Shown piece by piece: positions 2,358 through 13,723 of a stretch of 33,526 nt of DNA (positions are counted from its first letter, which is position 1; every line of letters starts with the position of its first letter). The notes below the pieces were generated by a model. The model ran no database searches, was not told the origin of the DNA, and was given only the letters and a program-made list of their open reading frames with translations. Source of the DNA: Deltaproteobacteria bacterium (GTDB lineage: Bacteria > Desulfobacterota > Desulfarculia > Adiutricales > Adiutricaceae). A program made the position numbers and the translations under genes. The DNA lies in assembly GCA_031264145.1 (NCBI GenBank), contig JAISEK010000037.1, positions 1 through 33,526 of the forward strand, given 5' to 3'.

Positions 2358-4979
2358 CTAGGCGGCGGCCTGGCCCAGCTTGGCCGGGGCCGGGCCCTTT
2401 CGGCCATCGGAGGGCGACTCGAGCCTGCGACGCCGGATCTGGCTCACGACCACAACGGCCAGGAAAAAGAGGCCCGGGATGCTGAAGAGCCACTTGGGCG
2501 GCCGGTCGAGGTTGGCCACCTCGACCCCCAGGACCTCGGTGGGGTCGTTCATGTTCACGCCCAGCTTCTCGAGACGGCTGTTGTAGGCCACGTTGACGAT
2601 CATGAGCCTCCCTTCCTCCCAGCCGACGAAGACCCCGGCCTGGGCCAGCCGTTCCTCGGCCGAGGAGCCCTGGTTCGGCAGCACCACGACCTGGTCGACC
2701 ACACGGCCGTCCCGGAAGCTGGTCACCAGGCGGAGGCGGATGGAGTCGTCAGGGGAAAGGTCCCCGACCGTCTCCAGAACCCGTCCCGGCGGCAGCTCGT
2801 GGAAGGCCGGGAAGACTCGGTTCTGGGGAATGTCGGGCCTGAAGAGGAAGATCATGGCCACCAGGAGGAAGATGACCTCCCACCAGCGGGTCTTGACGAG
2901 CATGAAGCGCTGGGTCGCGCTGGCGAAGGCCAGGCAGGCCAGGATGGAGGTGACGAGGACCCAGACGAAGTGGAAGGCGTTCTGGATGTTCAGGAGCAGG
3001 ATCTCCTGGTTGTAGAGGAAGACGAACGGGAGGACCGCCGTCCTGAGCTCGTATATGAAGCCCTGGACCCCGGTCTTGAAGGGATCGCCCCCCGAGATCC
3101 CGGAGGCGGCGAAGGCGGCCAGGGCCACCGGCGGGGTGGCGTCGGCCATGACCCCGAAGTAGAGGCAGAAAAGGTGGACGGCCAGATAGGGGATGCCCAG
3201 GCCGTGGGCGGCCGAGAGGTTGTAGATGACCGGGGCCAGGAGGGTCGAGACGATGATGTAGTTGGCCGTCGTCGGGAGCCCCATGCCCAGGACGATGGAG
3301 AGCATGGCCGTCATGACCAGGACCACCGGGAGGTAGCCGCCGGAGATGATCTCGACCATGGAAGCCAGGACCTGGCCCACGCCGGTCAGGCTCACGCTCC
3401 CGACCACGATGCCGGCGCTGGCCGTGGCCAGGCCGATGCCGACCATGTTCTTGGCCCCGCCGACCATGCTGGAGAGGAACCTGGAGACGCCGAACTTTAT
3501 GGCCGGCCCGATGGGCTGGCGGCGGCGCCAGGCCACGAAGGGCCTCTGGGTCAGGAGGATGAAGATCATCAGGAGGCAGGCGTAATAGGCCGCGAGCCCA
3601 GGGGACATCTCCATGACCATCAGGCCCCAGACCAGGGTGGCCGTGGGCATCAGGAAGTAGAGGCCCGAGAAGATGATCGGGATGGCCGACTCGACCTGGG
3701 TCAGGGAGTCGTAGTCGCTCTCCGGGAGCTCGGGGAACCGCAGGGAGGCCCACAGGAGGGCGATGTAGCCGGCGATCAGGAAAAGGGCGAAGACGGCCCA
3801 GGAATAGCCATGGAAAACCGAGGGGACCCAGGCCAGGAAGTAGTAGACCAGACAGACCAGGACCGCGGATGAGGAAAGGCCCAGGCCGTAGCCCAGGACG
3901 CGGCTGAGGATGGGCCTGGGCGGCCTGGGCGCAGCCTCCATGCCCAGCTTGCAGGCCTCTATGTGGACGATGTAGAGGAGCGACAGGTAGGCCAGGATGG
4001 CCGGGATGAAGGCATGCTTGATGAGCTGCGAGTACGGCATGTTGATGTACTCGGCCATCAGGAAGGCCGCCGCCCCCATGACCGGGGGCATGATCTGGCC
4101 GTTGGACCCGGCGGCGACCTCCACCGCCCCGGCCTTCTCGGCCGAGAAGCCCACCTTCTTCATCAGCATGATGGTGACCGGGCCGCAGGTCAGAACGTTG
4201 GCTATGGAGGAGCCGGATATGAGCCCGTGGAGCCCGGAGGCCACCACGGCCGCCTTGGCCGGCCCGCCCCTGAGCTGGCCCAGGAGGGCGAAGGAGAGCG
4301 CCGTCAGGTAGTTGCCCGCCCCGGCCCCCTCCAGCATGGCCCCGAAAAGGACGTAGAGGAAGACGAAGCTGGCCGAGACCCCCAGGGGCACCCCGAAGAC
4401 GCCCTCCTGGGTCAGCCAGAACTGCGAGGCGGCCCGCGAGAGGGAGGCCCCGCGGTGGGCGATGAGATCCGGGGCGTGTGGGCCGCCGAAGACGTAGATC
4501 AGGAAGATTATGGCCACCAGGGTCATCGGCAGGCCCATGACCCTCCGGGTGGCCTCCAGGAGAAGGACCACCCCGACGCAGGCAACGGCGATGTCCAGCG
4601 TCGTGGGGATGCCCGGCCGCCTGGCCAGCTGGTCCTGGAAGATGTACAGGTAGCAGGAGCAGAAGGAGGCCACCAGGGCGAAGAGCCAGTCCTGGAAGGG
4701 AACCCGGTCGTGGGGGCTGGACTTGAACATGGGAAAGCCGGTGAAGGCCAGGAAGATGGCGAACCCCAGGTGGAGGGACCTCGCGGCCGTGTCGTTCAGG
4801 ATCCCGACGCCCAGCCGGTAGGGGATGGGGGAGGTAATCCACAGCTGGAAAAGCGACCAGATTATGGGAATGATTATCAGGATGGCGTGGGGGAAGCCGG
4901 AGGGCCTTCGCCGCCCGGTCTCCTTCTCCAGCATCTCCTTGATGACGTCCGATTTGTCGACCCTGCTCATTAAAGTCAT
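2358..4979 (-). CDS. TRAP transporter fused permease (4TM/12TM, TAXI type)
   Basis: Inner-membrane permease in which the small DctQ-like and large DctM-like subunits are fused. It imports a solute delivered by a TAXI-type periplasmic receptor, driven by an ion gradient. The DctM part is recognised by the GLISGSSIANVLTCGPVTI and GSNGQIMPPVMGAAAFL segments in the first half and by GMGLPTTANYI and GVMADATPPVALAAFAASG in the second, the paired helix-hairpin regions that line the substrate path. After the last DctM helix, residues ~700-840 form a soluble extension matching what is usually called DUF3394, and one more membrane helix precedes a basic tail. I chose ATG 4979, about six bases after a GGGG stretch; a TTG at 4991 and an ATG at 4970 are alternatives. 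The gene for its receptor lies immediately upstream on the same strand. The substrate cannot be told from sequence. Confidence 0.93.
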   Translation of the reverse strand: MTLMSRVDKSDVIKEMLEKETGRRRPSGFPHAILIIIPIIWSLFQLWITSPIPYRLGVGILNDTAARSLHLGFAIFLAFTGFPMFKSSPHDRVPFQDWLFALVASFCSCYLYIFQDQLARRPGIPTTLDIAVACVGVVLLLEATRRVMGLPMTLVAIIFLIYVFGGPHAPDLIAHRGASLSRAASQFWLTQEGVFGVPLGVSASFVFLYVLFGAMLEGAGAGNYLTALSFALLGQLRGGPAKAAVVASGLHGLISGSSIANVLTCGPVTIMLMKKVGFSAEKAGAVEVAAGSNGQIMPPVMGAAAFLMAEYINMPYSQLIKHAFIPAILAYLSLLYIVHIEACKLGMEAAPRPPRPILSRVLGYGLGLSSSAVLVCLVYYFLAWVPSVFHGYSWAVFALFLIAGYIALLWASLRFPELPESDYDSLTQVESAIPIIFSGLYFLMPTATLVWGLMVMEMSPGLAAYYACLLMIFILLTQRPFVAWRRRQPIGPAIKFGVSRFLSSMVGGAKNMVGIGLATASAGIVVGSVSLTGVGQVLASMVEIISGGYLPVVLVMTAMLSIVLGMGLPTTANYIIVSTLLAPVIYNLSAAHGLGIPYLAVHLFCLYFGVMADATPPVALAAFAASGISGGDPFKTGVQGFIYELRTAVLPFVFLYNQEILLLNIQNAFHFVWVLVTSILACLAFASATQRFMLVKTRWWEVIFLLVAMIFLFRPDIPQNRVFPAFHELPPGRVLETVGDLSPDDSIRLRLVTSFRDGRVVDQVVVLPNQGSSAEERLAQAGVFVGWEEGRLMIVNVAYNSRLEKLGVNMNDPTEVLGVEVANLDRPPKWLFSIPGLFFLAVVVVSQIRRRRLESPSDGRKGPAPAKLGQAAA

Positions 4980-5304
4980 GACAAGCCCCAAAAGAAAAAG
5001 CTGAAACTATCAGGAAAGCAAAACCCTATCGCCCAGGATAGCTTTGGTCTATGTATCTCAGGCAACACTACTACAACTAATAAAAGGATGTTTGCCGGGG
5101 GAACAAGGCATCAAATATCATGCCTGGCAAGAACCAGATGATATCCAGGTTTGTCCAAGGCAAACGGCATATTACCGTTCCCGATGCGGATGACCTGGCC
5201 AGACGCTGCCGGACGCCAAAACGGAGGAAAGGCCGCCGCCCGGGGCCGCCTTTCCTCCGCGATCTTGGAGGCCGGAGCCTGCGTCAGGTCTTCCCGCCGG
5301 AAAC
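4980..5304. other. TAXI-TRAP intergenic region
   Basis: 325 bp between the receptor and permease genes. It holds the hairpin at 5222-5259 and a small imperfect dyad (AGGCAT at 5106-5111 against ATGCCT at 5120-5125). I see no convincing promoter for the permease on the minus strand and no credible gene. The permease is probably transcribed by read-through past the hairpin. Confidence 0.5.
5218..5259 (-). terminator. Hairpin after TAXI receptor gene, probably attenuating
   Basis: A 12-bp stem (5222-5233 with 5248-5259) with a GC-rich 14-nt loop, followed on the minus strand by TTTT. It stands between the receptor and the permease genes. Partial termination here would give more receptor than permease, the usual ratio in binding-protein-dependent transporters; that consequence is inference. 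Confidence 0.6.
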
Positions 5305-6309
5305 CTACTCCACGGCCAGGCCGGCTTCCGCGAAATACCTGAGGGCCCCCGGATGGAAGGGGACGGAGTTGCCCTCCAGCATGTTCTCCGGCGTCAGGGC
5401 CGACAGGGCCGGGTGGAGGTTCTTGAACTCGTCGAGGTTGGAGAAGACGGCCTTGGTGATCTCGTAGGCCAGATCCTCGGGGAGCTCGGCGTGGGCCATC
5501 AGGGTGGCCCGTGGCCCGAAGGTCTGGACGTCCTGGTCGGTCCCCTTGTAGGTCTCCTTGGGGATCACGGCCAAGGGGTAGAAGGGGTACTTGGCCATGA
5601 AGGCCTCCACCTTGGGGCCGGTCACCGGGACCACGTGGGACTCGCAGGTATTGAGGGCCTCGGTGATGGAGCCGTTGGGATGGCCTATCACGTAGACGTA
5701 GGCGTCAATCTTGTTGTCGCACAGGGCCCCGGCCATCTCGGCGGGCTTTAGGTCGGTGGCCAGCTTGAAGGTCTGCGGGGTCCACTCGTACTCCTTCATC
5801 AGGAGCTCGAGGGTGTTGCGGTTGCCGGAGCCCGGATCGCCCAGGTTCATGCGTTTGCCGGGCAGATCGTCGAAGGAGTTGATGTCGGCGTCCTTGCGGG
5901 CCACCAGGGTGAAGGCCTCGGACTGGAGGCTGAAAAGGACCCTCAGGTTGGGATCCGGGCCCGCCTCGGCGAACTGCTCCGTGCCGTTGTAGGCCTGGTA
6001 CTGGACGTCGGACTGGACTATGCCCAGGAACAGGTGGTCCGGGTCGGAACGGATGGTGTTGACGTTGAAGACCGAGGCCCCGGTGGACTCGACCGTGCAG
6101 CGGACGTTGTGGGTCCCGGCCTGCCGGCCCTTGTCCACCAGGCGGCAGACGGCCCCGCCGGCCGGATAGTAGACCCCGGTTATGCCGCCGGTGCCTATGG
6201 TCACGAACTGCCTGTCCCCCTGGGCCGGGGCCGCGGCCGGCAGCGCCAGGGCCGCCAGTGCCAGGCCAAAGGCGCAGGCCAGGACTTTGAAGACCAATTT
6301 GTCGAACAT
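5305..6309 (-). CDS. TAXI family TRAP transporter periplasmic solute receptor
   Basis: Periplasmic receptor (334 aa) that captures a small, probably carboxylate-type, ligand and docks on the TRAP permease encoded next. ATG 6309 is preceded by AGGAG seven bases upstream (6317-6321) and begins a clear signal peptide: a charged MFDK start, a ~20-residue hydrophobic core, and an A-rich cleavage region ending near residue 29. The frame continues about 100 codons further upstream but that part reads as non-coding. The mature protein opens with FVTIGTGGITGVYYPAGGA, the fingerprint of the TAXI/NMT1-like branch of type II periplasmic binding proteins. SEAFTLVARKDADI and PGKRMNLGDPGSGNRNT follow, the segments that line the ligand cleft. 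Length is normal for the family. The ligand is unknown; TAXI receptors have few characterised substrates. Confidence 0.93.
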   Translation of the reverse strand: MFDKLVFKVLACAFGLALAALALPAAAPAQGDRQFVTIGTGGITGVYYPAGGAVCRLVDKGRQAGTHNVRCTVESTGASVFNVNTIRSDPDHLFLGIVQSDVQYQAYNGTEQFAEAGPDPNLRVLFSLQSEAFTLVARKDADINSFDDLPGKRMNLGDPGSGNRNTLELLMKEYEWTPQTFKLATDLKPAEMAGALCDNKIDAYVYVIGHPNGSITEALNTCESHVVPVTGPKVEAFMAKYPFYPLAVIPKETYKGTDQDVQTFGPRATLMAHAELPEDLAYEITKAVFSNLDEFKNLHPALSALTPENMLEGNSVPFHPGALRYFAEAGLAVE

Positions 6310-6537
6310 GCCAAAACTCCTATGTCGCATTGGCACCGGGGAAACTGGTTCGTCCCCGGTGCCTGGGGATGGCCGCGCCGCCTTGGCGGAAATCGGACCT
6401 TGACGCTCATCTGTCCAGCCGGAAGGCTTCCTAGGGCCGGCCACATGGCCACCCGCCCCGCCCATGGCCCCCGGGTGGACTGGCCGGAAGGCTCTGGGGA
6501 ATGTCGGATATGCCGGAACCCTTGGGAACGGTTCCCG

Positions 6538-6566
6538 ATGATACCAAAGATCCGTCCAGAATCCAA
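6538..6566 (-). promoter_or_regulatory. Candidate promoter for the TAXI-TRAP genes
   Basis: On the minus strand TTGGAT (6561-6566) and TATCAT (6538-6543) are 17 bp apart. The -10 matches five of six consensus bases, the -35 only TTG. It would leave a leader of about 220 nt before the receptor start, which is long, so a nearer promoter cannot be excluded. The rest of 6310-6700 shows no credible gene. Confidence 0.35.
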
Positions 6567-6701
6567 CCCAAATCATTTTTTCCCTCGCGCCAACGCGATG
6601 GCCAATTTCCAACGGATCAGGCCATCAAGCCATGAAAGATTGACAATCTACATATCCTGCCCCCGCTAGTCCTTGCCTTTGGCCAAAGCCGTGGCCCAAA
6701 A

Positions 6702-6783: not shown

Positions 6784-7785
6784 CTATCTGGCCGTCTTCC
6801 AGTATTCCCGGATGTCGTCCTTGAGGGACGACGGCAGCGGCACGTACTGGAGGCCGGTGGCCTGGGCGTCCCCGTTCTGGAAGCACCAGTCGAAGAAGGA
6901 GGTCACCAGGCCGATGGCCTCCGGGTTGTCCCTGCGCACGAGGATGAAGGTGGCCGCCGCTATGGGCCAGGACCCTTCCCCGGCCTCATCGACCAGCCAC
7001 AGGAAGTAGTCCCGGCCCCTGTCCCAGGCGGCGTTGGCCGCCGCCGCCCCGAAGCTGGCCACCGAGGGGGACACGGTCCGGCCGGCCTTGTTGATGAGGG
7101 AGGCCCAGACAATCTTGTTCTCGTGGGCATAGGCGTACTCGACGTAGCCTATGCTGTTCTTGACCCGCTTGACGCCGCCGGCCACGCCGTCGTTGCCCTT
7201 CTGGCCCACGCCCACCGGCCAGTTGACGGACTTTCCGGCCCCCACGGCCGACTTCCACTCGGGCGACATCAGCGACAGGTAGTTGGTGAAGATGGCCGAG
7301 GTCCCGGAGCTGTCGGAGCGGTAGACCACGTTGATGGCCTCCTGGGGGAACCTTTTCCCTGGGTTCAGGGCGGCCAGGGCCGGATCGTCCCATCTGGAGA
7401 TGATGCCCTGGAAGATGTCGGCCAGGACCTTCCCCGACAGGACCAGGTCGTCGTTCCCGAACCCCTCCAGGTTGACTATGGCCACCACGCCGCCCAGGAC
7501 GGCCGGGAACTGGACCAGGCCGGCCTTGGCCAGGTCCTCGCTGGTCTGGGGATCGTCGGAGGCCCCGAAGTCGACCGTCCCCTCGGTCACCTGCTTGATG
7601 CCCCCGCCAGAGCCGATGGACTGGTAGTTGACCTTGGTGCCGGTGGCCTTCTCGTAGTCGAAGGCCCAGGCCGAGTAGATGGGGTAGGGAAAGGAGGCCC
7701 CGGCCCCAGTCAGGTCCCTGGCCGCGGCCAGCGAGGGCCACAGGGCCAGGAGGGAGGCCAGAACGGCCATAAGGAATTTTCTCAT
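6784..7785 (-). CDS. pstS: Phosphate ABC transporter periplasmic phosphate-binding protein
   Basis: Binds phosphate in the periplasm and hands it to PstCAB. ATG 7785 (AAGAGGT at 7791-7797, five bases upstream) starts a 333-aa precursor with a signal peptide (MRKF, hydrophobic core, LAAA-RD cleavage near residue 21). The phosphate-binding segments of the family are all present in order: GAGASFPYPIYSAW at the mature N-terminus, GSGGGIKQV, VDFGASDDPQ and YRSDSSGTSAIF. It is the last gene of the regulon, 303 bp downstream of phoR, and has its own promoter and Pho-box array instead of leading the operon. An independent strong promoter suits a binding protein needed in excess over the permease. An in-frame ATG 11 codons upstream (7818) exists but would put a non-signal extension before the leader. 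Confidence 0.97.
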   Translation of the reverse strand: MRKFLMAVLASLLALWPSLAAARDLTGAGASFPYPIYSAWAFDYEKATGTKVNYQSIGSGGGIKQVTEGTVDFGASDDPQTSEDLAKAGLVQFPAVLGGVVAIVNLEGFGNDDLVLSGKVLADIFQGIISRWDDPALAALNPGKRFPQEAINVVYRSDSSGTSAIFTNYLSLMSPEWKSAVGAGKSVNWPVGVGQKGNDGVAGGVKRVKNSIGYVEYAYAHENKIVWASLINKAGRTVSPSVASFGAAAANAAWDRGRDYFLWLVDEAGEGSWPIAAATFILVRRDNPEAIGLVTSFFDWCFQNGDAQATGLQYVPLPSSLKDDIREYWKTAR

Positions 7786-7873
7786 CGCGTACCTCTTGGG
7801 GAAATGTTGGTGGGCCAAGGACCCTCGTCGGGCCGGCCCGGGAGGGGCCGGATCGTCTTGCCCGTCACGGGGA

Positions 7874-7928
7874 ATCTTAGTCCCCCCAGGTGAAGGGCCT
7901 GATAAGGGGAGGTAAAATAGTTGTAAAA
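7874..7928 (-). promoter_or_regulatory. Pho-box array and -10 element of pstS
   Basis: Read on the minus strand, four 7-bp units start every 11 bp: TTTTACA (7922-7928), TTTTACC (7911-7917), CTTATCA (7900-7906) and CTTCACC (7889-7895). Nine bp after the last unit comes TAAGAT (7874-7879), a 4/6 match to a -10 hexamer, and there is no -35 element. Direct repeats of 7 bp with a 4-bp spacer, replacing the -35, are the known plan of PhoB-activated promoters. The same arrangement with the same 9-bp gap precedes pstC. The base sequence is closer to TTTACA than to the enteric CTGTCAT. Binding by the PhoB encoded here is inferred. Confidence 0.75.
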
Positions 7929-7932
7929 TCTG

Positions 7933-8088: not shown

Positions 8089-9735
8089 TCAGGCCCTCTC
8101 GGTGAGACTGACCACGAAGGTGTTGCCCCCGCGATCGTTGTCCACGATCCGGGCCTGGCCCCCGTAGAGCCTGGCGATGTGCTTGACGATCGAGAGGCCC
8201 AGGCCCGAGCCGGAGTTCTCGCGGCTGCGGGAGGCCGAAAGGGAGTAGAACCGCTCGAAGATCCTCTCCCGCTCGCCCAGGGGGATGGCCGGGCCCCCGT
8301 CGGCCACGGAGATCGTCAGCCCGTCGTCCCCGCGGGAGACCGAGACGTCGATCTCCGGGCCGGAGGAGTATTTGAGGGCATTGGTGACGAGGTTCGTCAG
8401 GATGCTGGCGATGTGGCCGGGATGGACGCCGACGGTCCCGGAATCGCACCGCCAGTTGAGCCTCTTCCCGTCGGGCTCCACCAGATCCGCGACCTCGGAG
8501 ACCACCTCGCCCAGATCGCTCCTGGCCGCCGAGGGCCCGCCGGTCTCCAGGCGATGGAGGAAGATGAGATCGTCTAGGATGCCGTTCAGGCGCCTGGCGT
8601 TGCCGAGGACGGCCTGGAGGAACCTCTCCAGCCTCTCGCGGGGCATGCCCGGATCCCCGGCGATGACCTCGCTGGAGGCCATTATCAGTGACAGGGGCGT
8701 CTTGAGCTCGTGCGAGATGTTGGCCACCAGCTCGGACTTGTAGCCGCTGTACCTCAGCCTGTCGGAGATGTCGTGCAGGATGACCAGCGTGGCGGGGCCG
8801 TCCGAGCGCCGGCTGACCGTGACGGTCCGCCCGCCGATGGAGATCTCCGGGACCGGCTCCCCGCCGGCCAGGCTCCCGACCAGGCTGATGAGGTCGGCCT
8901 GGCAGATCTCCGAGAGCCTCCCCGGGAGCCTGTGGCCCAGGATGGCCGAGGCCCTCTCGTTCGAGTAGACGATGTCGTCCTCCTGCAGGAGGATGACACC
9001 TTCCTGGACGTTGGCCAGTATATACTGGAGGCGGGCGGAGAGCTCGGCGTTCCGCCGGCCATGCTCCTTGAGCTCCCTGGTGACCGCGGAGAGCGAGTAG
9101 AGGGCCGAGTCCAGGGACTCGTTCCGGAAGGAAGGCAGGTCATCGCTGCCGTTCTTGGCCCCGTCCACGGCCCGGGCCAGTTCCCTGAGCGTCCGGCTGG
9201 TGCTGCGGGAGACGATGAGGGCGAAGACGGCCACGGCGGCGAAGAGGGCCATGAGCCCGGAGAAGGTCTGGGCCAGGAGGGCCCCGGCCAGGCCCTGGTA
9301 GTACTCGGCCGGGTAGGCCACCCGGAGGACCAGATCGGGGCCCAGGCGGTCGGCGTAGTAGATGGTGTACAGGCCGGTGGTGGCGCTCCGCCTGGTGGCC
9401 ATGGCCGGGACGCCCAGAAAGGCGCTCCTTATCTCCTCGCGCTGGCTGTGGTCCTCCAGGATCTCCTCCCTGCTCCCGGAGTCGAAGACGACCCTGCCGG
9501 CGCGATCGACGAGCGTCACCCGGAGGCCCAGGCTCCGCCCGGCCTCCTTGAAGGCCTCGGTGTCCAGGGAGGAGGCCTGGATGATGGAGACCAGCCTCCA
9601 CTGGTTCCTCAGCTGGTCCCCGAACTGGGCGGCGCTCAGATCCTTGTTCTTCTGCTGGACCAGGGCCAGGCCGAAGACCAGGGCCAGGGAGGCCGGCAGG
9701 AATATCAGGGCGAATATCCTGTAGTTGCCGATCAT
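8089..9735 (-). CDS. phoR: Phosphate regulon sensor histidine kinase
   Basis: Inner-membrane histidine kinase (548 aa) that phosphorylates PhoB when phosphate is scarce. Domains in order: TM1 (about 6-26), an extracytoplasmic region of ~125 residues, TM2 (about 155-176), a HAMP-like linker, a PAS domain (about 235-320), the HisKA phosphoacceptor in NISHELKTP with His342, and a HATPase_c domain with NLVTNALKYS (N box), VADGGPAI (G1) and GSGLGLSIVKHI (G2). The sizeable periplasmic loop is unlike E. coli PhoR, which has almost none, but is like the Bacillus or clostridial type. The start ATG overlaps the phoB stop as ATGA, so translation is coupled. Position directly behind phoB inside the pst operon supports the PhoR assignment over a generic kinase. 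Confidence 0.94.
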   Translation of the reverse strand: MIGNYRIFALIFLPASLALVFGLALVQQKNKDLSAAQFGDQLRNQWRLVSIIQASSLDTEAFKEAGRSLGLRVTLVDRAGRVVFDSGSREEILEDHSQREEIRSAFLGVPAMATRRSATTGLYTIYYADRLGPDLVLRVAYPAEYYQGLAGALLAQTFSGLMALFAAVAVFALIVSRSTSRTLRELARAVDGAKNGSDDLPSFRNESLDSALYSLSAVTRELKEHGRRNAELSARLQYILANVQEGVILLQEDDIVYSNERASAILGHRLPGRLSEICQADLISLVGSLAGGEPVPEISIGGRTVTVSRRSDGPATLVILHDISDRLRYSGYKSELVANISHELKTPLSLIMASSEVIAGDPGMPRERLERFLQAVLGNARRLNGILDDLIFLHRLETGGPSAARSDLGEVVSEVADLVEPDGKRLNWRCDSGTVGVHPGHIASILTNLVTNALKYSSGPEIDVSVSRGDDGLTISVADGGPAIPLGERERIFERFYSLSASRSRENSGSGLGLSIVKHIARLYGGQARIVDNDRGGNTFVVSLTERA

Positions 9736-10421
9736 TTGGCGCCCGCCGGCCCGGCCTCCCAGAGATAGCCTATCTTGGGGAGGGTCTTGATGTATCGGCC
9801 CCTGTCGGCCAGCTTCTTGCGCAGCATGGCCATGTGGACGTCCACGGTCCGGCTGTTGACGTCGGTCTCGTAGCCCCAGATGACGTTCAGGAGCTGGTTC
9901 CTGGTGAAGACCTTGCCTGGCTTGCGGACGAAGAGGGCCAGGAGGTCGAACTCCTTCTGGGTCAGCTGGAGCTCCGAGTCGCCGCAGACGGCCCTGTGGG
10001 AGTCCAGGTCCAGGCTCACCCCCCCGCTGGAGAAGCGGCTGGAGCCGGGGGCCTGCTCGCCCGACAGGCGCCTCAGGGCCACCTTGACCTTGGTCTCCAG
10101 GAGCTTGAGGCTGAAGGGCTTGGGCAGGTAGTCGTCCGCCCCCCGCTCCAGGGCCCTTATGACGTCCTCCTCGGAGGTCCGGGCGGAGATGATGATGACC
10201 GGGGTCCTCTGGTCCCGCTGCCTCAGGATGTCCAGGAACTGGAGTCCCTGGAGGCCGGGCAGCATCAGGTCCAGGAGGATGAGGTCCGGCGGGCAGTCCT
10301 CGACGGCGATGAGGGCGTCGTTGGCGTTCTCGAAGGCCGCCACCTGGAAGCCCTCGCGGCTGAGGTTGTACTCGACCACCTCCCGCAGGGCGGCCTCGTC
10401 CTCAATCATCATTATCAGCAT
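9732..10421 (-). CDS. phoB: Phosphate regulon response regulator (OmpR/PhoB family)
   Basis: Cytoplasmic transcription factor (229 aa) activated by PhoR. The receiver domain (1-120) has the acidic pair E7/D8, phosphoacceptor Asp51 in LILLDLMLPG, Ser79 and Lys101 in LPKPFS. The C-terminal winged helix (about 135-225) has the family signature RTVDVHMAMLRKKL and ends KTLPKIGYLWE. It is the expected reader of the repeat arrays upstream of pstC and pstS. Its start lies inside the phoU gene (20-bp overlap); further ATG codons at the fourth and fifth positions could also serve. It is followed by phoR with a 4-bp overlap. Confidence 0.95.
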   Translation of the reverse strand: MLIMMIEDEAALREVVEYNLSREGFQVAAFENANDALIAVEDCPPDLILLDLMLPGLQGLQFLDILRQRDQRTPVIIISARTSEEDVIRALERGADDYLPKPFSLKLLETKVKVALRRLSGEQAPGSSRFSSGGVSLDLDSHRAVCGDSELQLTQKEFDLLALFVRKPGKVFTRNQLLNVIWGYETDVNSRTVDVHMAMLRKKLADRGRYIKTLPKIGYLWEAGPAGAK

Positions 10422-11082
10422 CTGGGCCGGCCTCCGGGTTGTGGCGCAGAAGAATCCCCTTGGTCACGTATGGTACCATAACCGAGATGTTCTTGGCGTG
10501 GTCGGCCACCCTCTCCATCCTTCTGGTGAGGTTTATCAGGGAGACTATGTCCAGGGCCCTGTCCGGGTCCCTGGCCACCTGGGCGGCCAGGCCCTCGTTG
10601 AGCCCCCTATGGAGCTCGCCGACCCTCCTGTCCCTGGCGACGATGTCGGCGTGGATCCGGTCGTCGCCGGCCAGGAAGCTGTCGATGGCCTGCCCGACCA
10701 TGCCGTGGGCGATGGAGGCCATCTCCCCGAAGCCGCGGTCCCTGGCCCAGATGGGCGCCAGATGCCTGGCCAGGCCCTCCCTGGCCATGACCGTGGCGTG
10801 GTCGGCCACGCGCTCTATGTCGGTGGTCAGCCTGGTGACGGCCACGGCGTACCGGAGCTCCAGGGCCTTGGGGGCCTTGAGGGCCAGGAACCTGAGGCAC
10901 AGGCCCTCGATCTCGTTCTCCAGGGCGTCGACCTGGGCGTCGTGGCCGATTACCGTCCTGGCCAGCCGCCCGTCGGCCCTCTCCAGGGCCTCTACGGCCC
11001 CGGAGAACATGCCCGCGGAAAGCTGGCCCATCACCGCCAGCCTGGATCTGATGGCCAAAAGGTCTTTGTCTTGGATCGCCAT
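10402..11082 (-). CDS. phoU: Phosphate signalling complex protein PhoU
   Basis: Cytoplasmic all-helical protein (226 aa) that links the PstSCAB transporter to PhoR and restrains the Pho response when phosphate is plentiful. It shows two related three-helix repeats. Each carries the metal-cluster motif of the family: TTDIERVADHA in the first half and TRRMERVADHAKNI in the second, with conserved E/D and H residues. Length is typical. It lies between pstB (34 bp upstream) and phoB (20-bp overlap), the common gene order. Confidence 0.96.
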   Translation of the reverse strand: MAIQDKDLLAIRSRLAVMGQLSAGMFSGAVEALERADGRLARTVIGHDAQVDALENEIEGLCLRFLALKAPKALELRYAVAVTRLTTDIERVADHATVMAREGLARHLAPIWARDRGFGEMASIAHGMVGQAIDSFLAGDDRIHADIVARDRRVGELHRGLNEGLAAQVARDPDRALDIVSLINLTRRMERVADHAKNISVMVPYVTKGILLRHNPEAGPDADNDD

Positions 11083-11116: not shown

Positions 11117-11872
11117 TCAGCCGAAGCGCCCGGTCACGTACTCCTCGGTCAGCTTGTTCCTGGGCTTGGTGAAGATGGTGGCCGTCTCGTCATACTCCAC
11201 CAGGCTGCCCAGGTACATCAGGGCCGTGAAGTCGGATATCCTGGCGGCCTGCTGCATGTTGTGGGTGACGGCGATGATGGTCACCTCCTTCTTGAGCTCG
11301 GTCATCAGCTCCTCGATCTTCTTGCTGGAGATTGGGTCCAGGGCGCTGGTCGACTCGTCGAACAGGATGACCTGCGGATCCACGGCCAGGGTCCTGGCTA
11401 TGACCAGCCTCTGCTGCTGGCCGCCTGAGAGGCCCTGGGCGTTCTGGCCCAGGCGGTCCTTGACCTCGTCCCAGACGGCCGCCTGCCGCAGGGCCTTCTC
11501 GACCCTTTCCCGGAGGACGCCAGCGTTGCGGACCCTCTTGAGCCTCAGGCCGTAGGCCACGTTGTCGAAGACGCTCATCGGGAAGGGGGTGGGCTTCTGG
11601 AAGACCATGCCCATGGAGTTCCTGAGCCCTATGACGTCGACCGCCGGCCCCAGGATATCGCGGCCGTCCATGAGTATCTCCCCCCGGTAGCGGTTGTTGG
11701 GGTAGAGGTCGTGCATGCGGTTGAAGCACCTCAGGAGGGTCGTCTTCCCGCAGCCGGACGGCCCGATCAGGGAGGTGATGCGGTTCCTCCTGATGGGGAG
11801 GGTCACCGCCCTCAGGGCGTGGGTCTGGCCGTAGAAGAAATCCAGGCCATTTACGAGCAGATGGTCTCCCAT
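11117..11872 (-). CDS. pstB: Phosphate ABC transporter ATPase
   Basis: Cytoplasmic ATPase (251 aa) that powers phosphate import through PstC-PstA. Walker A is GPSGCGKT at 37-44, the Q-loop lies in [17 protein letters not shown] (a PstB hallmark), the ABC signature LSGGQQQ is at 148-154, Walker B VILFDE at 168-173, and the switch histidine is in VTHNMQQA. Length and motifs are typical. It starts 10 bp after the pstA stop, within the operon. Confidence 0.98.
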
Positions 11873-11882
11873 TGGCGCGCCT

Positions 11883-12728
11883 CTAGCCCCTCTTCCGTAG
11901 CCTGATGACCACCCGGCCCAGGATGTTGAGCATGAGCACCAGGACGGTCACCACGAAGGCCGCCGCCCAGGCCAGGCCGACCCAGCCCTCGTAGGGGGAG
12001 GCGGCGTACTGGTAGATGCTGACCGTGAGCGAGGGCACCGCCTGGGACATGTCGAGCCGGAAAAAGTTGCTGTTGAAGGAGGTGAAGAGCAGCGGGGCCG
12101 TCTCCCCGGCCACCCTGGCCATGGCCAGGAGGATGCCCGTGAAGATGCCGCTCATGGCCGAGCGCCAGACTATGCTGGTTATAACCTTGCAGTATGGAGC
12201 CCCCAGGGCGAAGGCCGCCTCCCGCAGGGCCCAGGGGACCATGGTCATCATCTCCTCCGTCGTCCTGACGATGATCGGCAGTATGATGATGGCCAGGGCC
12301 ACCGCGCCGGCCCAGCCGTTGAAGCCGCCCATCGGCTTGACCAGGATGGCGTAGGCGAAGGTGCCGATGACTATCGAGGGGATGGAGACGGCCATGTCGG
12401 AGAGGGTGCTTATCAGGCGGCAGATCCTGCTGTCGCGGCCATACTCGGCCAGGTAGGTGCCGCCCAGGACCCCTATGGGGACGCCCATGGCCGAGGCGGC
12501 CAGGGTCAGGAGGCCCTGGCCCAGGAAGGCGCTCCTGAGCCCCCCGGCCCCGGCCATGTTCGGCGGGGCCGGATCCTGGGTGAACAGCCGGAGCCGCAGG
12601 GATCCCAGGCCCTCGGCCAGGACGTCGCGGAGAATGGTGGCCAGGAGAAGCAGCCCCGCCAGGGCGCAGAGGCTGGCCAGGGCCATGGCCGCCAGGTTCC
12701 AGGCCTTGCGGGCCGCCAGGCCGCTCAT
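11883..12728 (-). CDS. pstA: Phosphate ABC transporter permease PstA
   Basis: Inner-membrane permease subunit (281 aa) that pairs with PstC. ATG 12728 overlaps the pstC stop as ATGA and gives a protein starting [10 protein letters not shown]; the same frame stays open far upstream across pstC, but that part is antisense-type noise. About six membrane helices are visible. The EAA loop that docks on PstB is [17 protein letters not shown], followed by the family segment [18 protein letters not shown]. Confidence 0.96.
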
Positions 12729-13642
12729 CTCCTGCCCCCCAGGAGGCGCTTGGCCAGGCTCAGGGCCATGAAGTTGGCCAGAAAGAGGATGAGGGCCAGC
12801 GAGAAGAGGGCCGAGAGCTGCAGGCCACCGGCCTCGTTGAACTCGTTGGCCATGACCGAGGTGATGGTCACGTAGGGGGAGAAGATGGAGTCCAGGGCCG
12901 CATGGCGGTTCCCGATGACGTAGGCCACGGCCATGGTCTCGCCCAGGGCCCGGCCCATGGCCAGGATGACGCCGCCGGCCAGGGCCATCTTGGAGAAGGG
13001 GATGACCACCCACCGGATGGTCTCCCAGCGGGTGGCCCCCAGCCCGTAGGATGACTCCCGGAGCATGGCCGGTACCTGGGACATGGCCTCCCTGGCGATG
13101 CTGGAGATGAAGGGCACTATCATCACGGCCAGGATCATGGAGGCCGTGAAGAGGTTGACCCCGCCGGCCAGCCGGGCCCGGAAGAACGGGCCGGCGACCG
13201 GGAGCTGGCCCAGGGTCCCCGACACCAGGGGCTGGAAGTGGGCCTCGAGGAAGGGGGCCAGGACGAAGAGGCCCCACATGCCGTAGATGATGCTGGGGAT
13301 GGCCGCCAGGAGCTCCAGGGCGGCGGCGATGGCCGCCCGCAGCCGGTGGGGGCACAGCTCGGTCAGGAACACGGCCATGCCCAGGGCCACCGGGACGGCC
13401 ACGGACAGGGCCAGGGCCGTGGAGAGGAAGGTGCCGGCGAGGGGCCGGAGGGCCCCGAAGGTCCCCGTGGAGTAGTTCCAGTCGGAGGAGGACAGGAAGC
13501 GCAGGACCCCGAAGTGCCTCAGGGCCGGGAAGGACTCCCAGGCCAGGGTCGCCAGCATGGCCGCCACGACCACCAGGACGCTGGCCGAGGAGAGGCCGGT
13601 CAGGCACCTGAAGGCCAGGTTTTTGGAGATTCCGCCTTTCAT
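12725..13642 (-). CDS. pstC: Phosphate ABC transporter permease PstC
   Basis: Inner-membrane permease subunit (305 aa), first gene of the pst-pho operon. About six helices; the EAA loop is MLRESSYGLGATRWETIRWVV and the downstream segment GGVILAMGRALGETMAVAYVIG is diagnostic for PstC. The ATG is only seven bases from the candidate -10 (13650-13655), and AGAGG ends two bases before it, so the transcript may have almost no leader. No better start is seen downstream. The gene ends in a 4-bp overlap with pstA. Confidence 0.96.
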   Translation of the reverse strand: MKGGISKNLAFRCLTGLSSASVLVVVAAMLATLAWESFPALRHFGVLRFLSSSDWNYSTGTFGALRPLAGTFLSTALALSVAVPVALGMAVFLTELCPHRLRAAIAAALELLAAIPSIIYGMWGLFVLAPFLEAHFQPLVSGTLGQLPVAGPFFRARLAGGVNLFTASMILAVMIVPFISSIAREAMSQVPAMLRESSYGLGATRWETIRWVVIPFSKMALAGGVILAMGRALGETMAVAYVIGNRHAALDSIFSPYVTITSVMANEFNEAGGLQLSALFSLALILFLANFMALSLAKRLLGGRR

Positions 13643-13649
13643 GGCCTCT

Positions 13650-13704
13650 GTTATAGACCGTGAAGGGCAAGAACCTGTTTGGGGGATGTAAAAATATTGT
13701 AAAA
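13650..13704 (-). promoter_or_regulatory. Pho-box array and -10 element of pstC
   Basis: Minus-strand units every 11 bp: TTTTACA (13698-13704), TTTTACA (13687-13693), CCAAACA (13676-13682) and CTTGCCC (13665-13671). After 9 bp comes TATAAC (13650-13655), five of six matches to a -10 hexamer. The TCCC spacer between units 2 and 3 and the GG that opens the spacer between units 3 and 4 are also shared with the pstS array. This places PhoB-type binding in the -35 position of the operon promoter. Confidence 0.75.
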
Positions 13705-13723
13705 CCAGGCCCCTGGCGGCGGC

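Follow-up and report, generated by a model that had tools for sequence, protein, structure and literature searches.

The four-unit direct-repeat array upstream of pstS in this termite-gut lineage is, judging from sequence comparison, very probably the local Pho box, through which PhoR and PhoB would activate pstS, pstCAB-phoU-phoBR, phosphonate uptake and ppk1, and its TTTTACA wording would stem from the loss of Arg201 in PhoB. In this little-known group of gut bacteria, the phosphate-starvation switch keeps the textbook layout but is spelled with other DNA letters, a shift that apparently parallels one in the protein recognizing them. Under low phosphate, PhoR would phosphorylate the PhoB encoded in the same operon, and PhoB molecules would occupy the units, which recur every 11 bp, in head-to-tail order, replacing the -35 element and recruiting RNA polymerase to a -10 hexamer situated 9 bp downstream. 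As a result, pstS would be switched on, a twin site would drive pstCAB-phoU-phoBR (autoregulation), and phosphonate uptake would be induced as well, plus ppk1 where it is present. The box would read TTTTACA and not the enteric TGTCATA on account of a lineage PhoB devoid of Arg201, the reported guanine contact at unit position 2.

The DNA analysed (hereafter the window, 33,526 nucleotides in length, from an assembly placed by GTDB in the family Adiutricaceae of the Desulfobacterota) carries on its minus strand, in this order, pstC, pstA, pstB, phoU, a phoB-like regulator, a phoR-like kinase, a gap of ~270 bp and pstS (Table 1). The array occupies the gap between the phoR-like gene and pstS and reads directly as TTTTACA acta TTTTACC tccc CTTATCA ggcc CTTCACC tggggggac TAAGAT, that is, four 7-bp units with 4-bp spacers and an 11-bp period (7928-7889, minus strand) followed by a -10 hexamer. 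An earlier sequence-only reading had described four minus-strand units of this period, then 9 bp and a -10, and every one of these elements was found in its place. The corresponding pattern, drawn up post hoc from the array as seen, occurs a single time in the window, and none of 100 shuffles contains it. The open frame of pstS begins at TTG, and an internal ATG near 7785 is the likely start; pstA is the C-terminal part of a longer open frame, and its coordinates are approximate at the start.

Table 1. Promoter elements and genes of the phosphate locus in the window.
Feature	Coordinates	Strand	Basis
Pho-box unit 1 of pstS promoter, TTTTACA	7922..7928	-	sequence; kept in relatives
Pho-box unit 2 of pstS promoter, TTTTACC	7911..7917	-	sequence; A5 and C6 invariant in 39/39 relatives' arrays
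Pho-box unit 3 of pstS promoter, CTTATCA, weakly conserved register position	7900..7906	-	sequence; A5 biased only, 29/39
Pho-box unit 4 of pstS promoter, CTTCACC	7889..7895	-	sequence; TT.AC kept in relatives
Spacer from unit 4 to -10, pstS promoter, 9 bp	7888-7880	-	sequence
-10 hexamer TAAGAT, pstS promoter	7874..7879	-	sequence; T 36/39, A 37/39 in relatives; model match 7873-7929, E 2.8e-5
Pho-box unit 1 of pstC promoter, TTTTACA	13698..13704	-	sequence; model match 13650-13705, E 4.3e-8
Pho-box unit 2 of pstC promoter, TTTTACA	13687..13693	-	sequence
Unit 3 register of pstC promoter, CCAAACA, weak	13676..13682	-	sequence
Unit 4 register of pstC promoter, CTTGCCC	13665..13671	-	sequence
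-10 hexamer TATAAC, pstC promoter	13650..13655	-	sequence; ATG begins 7 nt further on
pstS, phosphate-binding protein	6784..7818	-	TIGR00975 369.8 bits, PRK10918 376.5 bits, both over cut-off
phoR-like sensor kinase	8089..9735	-	PnpS/phoR families best, under cut-off; HisKA and HATPase_c
phoB-like response regulator with Met201 and Pro219 (E. coli numbering)	9732..10421	-	TIGR02154 best family, 209 bits; alignment
phoU	10402..11082	-	TIGR02135 142.2 bits, over cut-off
pstB	11117..11872	-	TIGR00972 372 bits
pstA	11883..12713	-	TIGR00974 over residues 492-754 of 759-aa frame
pstC	12725..13642	-	TIGR02138 287.3 bits, over cut-off

The window regulator stays below the TIGR02154 (PhoB) cut-off of 296.2 bits, and since that cut-off is passed by just one of 158 phylum genomes, it is a poor test here and the name phoB-like is used. 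The protein has the receiver Asp and Lys and the winged-helix effector domain, and its gene lies beside phoR, phoU and pst; the base-reading Arg201 and Arg219 of PhoB are replaced by Met201 and Pro219.

In E. coli MG1655, the region before pstS reads CTGTCAT aaaa CTGTCAT attc CTTACAT ataa CTGTCAC, followed by TATTTT; when the units are read one base later (TGTCATA ... TGTCACC), 9 bp separate the last from TATTTT, as in the window. The two promoters share four 7-bp units, the 11-bp period, a weak third unit, the want of a -35 and a distance of 9-10 bp to the -10, and the two genomes share the PhoB-PhoR-PhoU-Pst gene set; this common geometry fits head-to-tail binding of PhoB where a -35 would otherwise stand. 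They differ in the unit itself (TTTTACA versus TGTCATA), in the PhoB residues at 201 and 219 (Met and Pro versus Arg and Arg) and in gene organization, as pst, phoU and phoBR form one operon in the window, with pstS downstream on its own box. The departure from the enteric CTGTCAT that had been claimed for the array is thus real and resides chiefly at position 2, where G has become T.

A twin array (13704-13650, minus strand) precedes pstCAB-phoU-phoB-phoR and reads TTTTACA atat TTTTACA tccc CCAAACA ggtt CTTGCCC ttcacggtc TATAAC; here also the -35 is replaced and 9 bp lead to the -10. The sequence-only reading spoke of a matrix of eight units, and may therefore have noticed this twin as well. 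Of 25 family loci, 23 have the pstC ATG 6-7 nt after the -10, a distance at which the mRNA would begin on the AUG or right beside it; in the remaining two the distance is 17 and 20 nt. The leaders of pstS in the family loci extend from 19 to 102 nt and mostly measure at least 40. On these distances, the pstC mRNA looks leaderless, and a conserved leaderless start for the whole pst-phoBR operon is predicted; leaderless mRNAs beginning at AUG are known in bacteria (PMC3616915).

In an ungapped comparison of the relatives' upstream regions, the array was found before pstC in 25 of 26 loci and before pstS in 16 of 20, the window being included in both counts. The one pstC locus in which it was not found belongs to genome G026 (L083); on contig C139 of G026 (L174), a boxed ppk1 precedes pstC, and perhaps the two genes form one operon, which may explain a pstC devoid of its own array. 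Among the 20 pstS loci, no array was found in G032, where little upstream sequence was available, nor could one be recognized in the three g8-genus genomes covered (L016, L017 and L019), in which pstC has one. Weak pstS matches in class relatives, representing another kind of PstS, and two partial genes (L028/L029) had been dropped before these counts. The other genomes, 26 in number, supply 39 arrays; units 1 and 2 never vary in A5 and C6 and have T3 in 39/39, unit 4 keeps TT.AC, and unit 3 is just biased towards A (29/39). All 39 arrays were aligned in a single register that sets the -10 at 9 bp from unit 4, and the -10 starts with TA (T in 36/39, A in 37/39). The columns from unit 4 to the -10 hold less than 0.4 bits; the columns where a -35 would fall likewise carry little information, in agreement with the earlier remark that there is none. 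The four-unit description itself holds for units 1, 2 and 4, which are conserved in the family, and is weak for unit 3.

These 39 arrays were assembled into a profile (R1) that contains none from the window's own genome (G000); it omits seven of 46 upstream regions, namely the two of G000, L083, L016, L017, L019 and L021. In the 4,010,264-base genome, its first and second ranks are the pstC and pstS sites (E-values in Table 1), the third lies before phnC-phnD-phnE and a phosphonate-metabolism gene (E 1.3e-3), and the fourth lies before an operon for a phosphonate-type ABC transporter with a phosphodiesterase (E 0.049); the eleven matches below these have E 0.47 or worse. The array thus stands before several phosphorus-acquisition operons, and the layout is kept at both extra sites; for example, the region before phnC reads TTTTACC tgcg GATAGCA ttcc TTTTACA agtatccct TATAAT. 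Applied to 37 family genomes, R1 gives 59 matches at E <= 0.01, spread over 30 of them, a total that includes its own training rows. Its column-shuffled version (R2) gives 2 matches at E <= 0.01 (best 1.5e-3) and 7 at E <= 0.05 over the same 37 genomes, and none at E <= 0.05 in the window's genome. The 22 held-out R1 matches in the family comprise only 10 before recognizable phosphorus genes, 3 at a contig end or with no named gene, and 9, mostly weak, at other or unannotated genes. The 10 are made up of three in G000, six before ppk1 and one before a relative of the phosphonate-type binding protein. One of the ppk1 genes was identified by family search and the other five by the same N-terminal sequence. 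The ppk1 sites occur in sister genera of the window's genus; in all seven genomes of the latter (g1), ppk1 had no match, an absence that fits the missing ppk1 box there.

It could be argued that A/T-rich hexamers in a GC-rich genome are a chance or compositional pattern, and TTWAC pairs at spacings of 2 to 12 are indeed common, numbering 135 in this genome, which is below the 330 of the reversed control; such pairs proved useless as a detector alone, and the full-length profile was used instead. This explanation is hardly credible, as the register is conserved over 26 genomes, the sites are enriched at a regulon, the column-shuffled model is silent in this genome, and the held-out profile search refutes it. 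The check that the sequence-only reading had proposed, a scan of the genome and its relatives for enrichment upstream of phosphate genes, places the top four sites at pst and phosphonate operons, with ppk1 added in relatives; the lack of enrichment that would have refuted the reading was not observed. Its designation of the array as the local PhoB site is supported, as a predicted site, by the geometry, the regulon and a -10 at the E. coli distance; we infer binding and activation by PhoB on these grounds.

A second objection attributes the site to a different OmpR-family regulator, for instance a CpxR-like one. The CpxR box, given as GTAAA-N(4-8)-GTAAA and orientation-independent in PMC5063474, corresponds on reverse complementation to the TTTAC pair in the window (TTTAC-N-TTTAC), so that a GTAAA pair lies on the other strand of the array, in a genomic context of phosphate. 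Moreover, E. coli CpxR has Ser-Asn at 200-201 and is likewise devoid of the two arginines, and in the one of 26 class genomes outside the family that R1 hits at E <= 0.001 (G055, L190), the match adjoins a response-regulator gene. Assignment to such a regulator is nevertheless quite improbable, because the genome's top four sites all precede phosphorus operons, one of which encodes the PhoB-PhoR pair itself, because the best family of the window regulator is PhoB, at 209 bits, with CpxR at 122, and because the array repeats three or four times at an 11-bp period and keeps a fixed distance to the -10. CpxR sites differ in their targets and neighbourhood, are variable in spacing and form no four-unit array 9 bp before a -10. 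In the class relative G055 (L190/L197), the pair beside the response-regulator gene is a strong TTTTAC pair, GTAAA on the other strand, and is possibly a CpxR-like autoregulatory site.

The Bacillus box is TTAACA. The Streptomyces coelicolor PhoP box, GTTCACC-N4-GTTCACC in PMC4832192, shares the TTnAC core and the 11-bp period with the window, whose unit 4 (CTTCACC) is one base off, although the organism is of a different phylum. The same source describes Mycobacterium tuberculosis PhoP as binding in tandem with a strict 4-bp spacing, three or four motifs being bound better than two. Similarly, the cyanobacterial SphR box, CTTAACCT (8 bp plus 3; PMC1906773), has a TTAAC core, the 11-bp period and three or more copies. 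The nearness of the array to non-enteric boxes is borne out by this TTnAC core, common to Streptomyces PhoP and cyanobacterial SphR. The box of PhoB (DVU1083) from the sulfate reducer Desulfovibrio vulgaris is (c/t)GT(n)AC by binding assay (PMC3333781); it resembles the window array in its direct repeat, 4-bp spacer and AC core but has G at position 2, which the window's family does not have. Desulfovibrio, cyanobacterial and Streptomyces boxes all depart from CTGTCAT as well, and the unlike spelling in the window is accordingly taken as a difference between lineages. Boxes with a TTnAC core are already in print for Streptomyces and cyanobacteria, and the TTTTACA wording is new for this lineage only; apart from the Desulfovibrio study, the open-access literature searched yielded nothing relevant on Adiutrix phosphate work in termites or on a deltaproteobacterial Pho box with PhoB.

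Position 2 of the unit is where protein and DNA appear to have changed together. According to PMC3973317, which cites the crystal structure, Arg201 bonds guanine and Arg219 contacts bases between half-sites; the base at position 2 is G in E. coli (TGTCATA) and T in the window's family (TTTTACA). The family's PhoB keeps Thr194, and in 20/20 proteins (19 relatives and the window) residue 201 is Met, Ser or Thr and residue 219 is Pro. L137, whose short contig carries no PhoB, had been dropped before counting. Position 219 in 63 other loci is Arg in 58, Trp in 3 and Lys in 2, so that Pro219 is special to the window's family.

The association was examined with one pst-pho locus for most GTDB families of the phylum having PhoB (60 stretches) and three order or class loci, in which a score blind to position 2 was used to look for four units and a -10 over 170 upstream regions; 49 regions passed p <= 0.02, with ~3.4 expected by chance. 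In arrays accompanied by Arg201, G at position 2 occurs in 23/25 at unit 3 and 23/25 at unit 4 and more weakly at units 1 and 2 (13/25 and 11/25), whereas arrays with other residues have it in 3/24 at each of units 3 and 4. A set of 46 phylum loci was then formed from the best array per locus and one window-family genome per genus (8, represented by pstC arrays that did not come from the blind scan). Arg201 goes with G at position 2 in 20 of 21 of these loci, and other residues do so in 1 of 25 (Fisher p 7.6e-11, ancestry uncorrected), many other phylum members besides the window's family being without this G. Column 201 is the most informative of all PhoB columns on base 2 (0.74 bits, next 0.44) and remains at the top without the window's family (0.70 bits, next 0.44). 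Loci with His201 read TTAACA or TTAATA, and those with Gly or Ser read mostly CTAACA or TTAACA. By eye, an order relative with Gly201 (G038, L196) shows TTTAACC/CTTAACG/CCTAACC and CTTCACA/CCTAACA before its pstS; having gone unflagged in the blind scan, it stands outside the counts.

These observations tilt slightly towards residue 201 acting as a one-residue switch for base 2, in which Arg would read G, and Gly, Ser, Ala, His, Asn, Lys, Met or Thr would go with T or C. Such a switch would have been thrown several times in one phylum, rewriting the boxes of whole regulons with the four-unit geometry unchanged, and the window's family would be an extreme case, having lost both base-reading arginines (Pro-Lys at 219-220); it would also couple the box to a pst operon with an mRNA beginning at its own AUG. 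Alternatively, the array may be a PhoB site whose TTTTACA arose by drift, base and residue both following ancestry and being unrelated to each other. In a poorly resolved tree built without the helix columns, residue 201 changes about four times and base 2 six times, and the independent-pairs test, with one supported pair and too few to reach significance, is uninformative; with so few independent changes, the association is not phylogenetically proven. Cyanobacterial SphR, said to retain the E. coli DNA-contact residues unlike the window PhoB (PMC1906773) and yet reading CTTAACCT, is a possible counterexample to the residue-base link. Drift is accordingly a serious, if tentative, possibility, against which stand the leading place of column 201, with or without the window's family, and the reported crystal-structure pairing of this very residue with base 2. 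The mutual dependence of residue change and box change that a switch implies would thus be probable to a modest degree. The Desulfovibrio box, by its wording, fits the group with G at position 2. Nothing was found in the open-access literature on covariation of the PhoB recognition helix, and prior publication of the switch elsewhere is possible.

Taken at this strength, the array provides an uncultured termite-gut family with its own Pho box and an initial list of regulon members; scanning such genomes with an enteric matrix would miss these sites. For the specialist, the interest lies in the possible specificity switch, in that a regulator and dozens of sites changing together may be reducible to a question of one residue and one base in a well-understood protein.

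Some minor observations concern the origin and surroundings of the pstS gene. The window PstS belongs to the E. coli type, scoring over cut-off with PRK10918, and class relatives give weak matches only; taken with the long branch of PhoB, this hints that the family's pst system may have come from outside. A search for related loci in named genomes returned four, three in 'Deltaproteobacteria' MAGs, whose PstS is 74-80% identical to that of the window, and one betaproteobacterial; the isolate names of the three MAGs suggest a termite-gut origin. Downstream of pstS, on the minus strand (2358-6612), lies a TAXI-type TRAP transporter, consisting of a substrate-binding protein and a fused permease with DUF3394.
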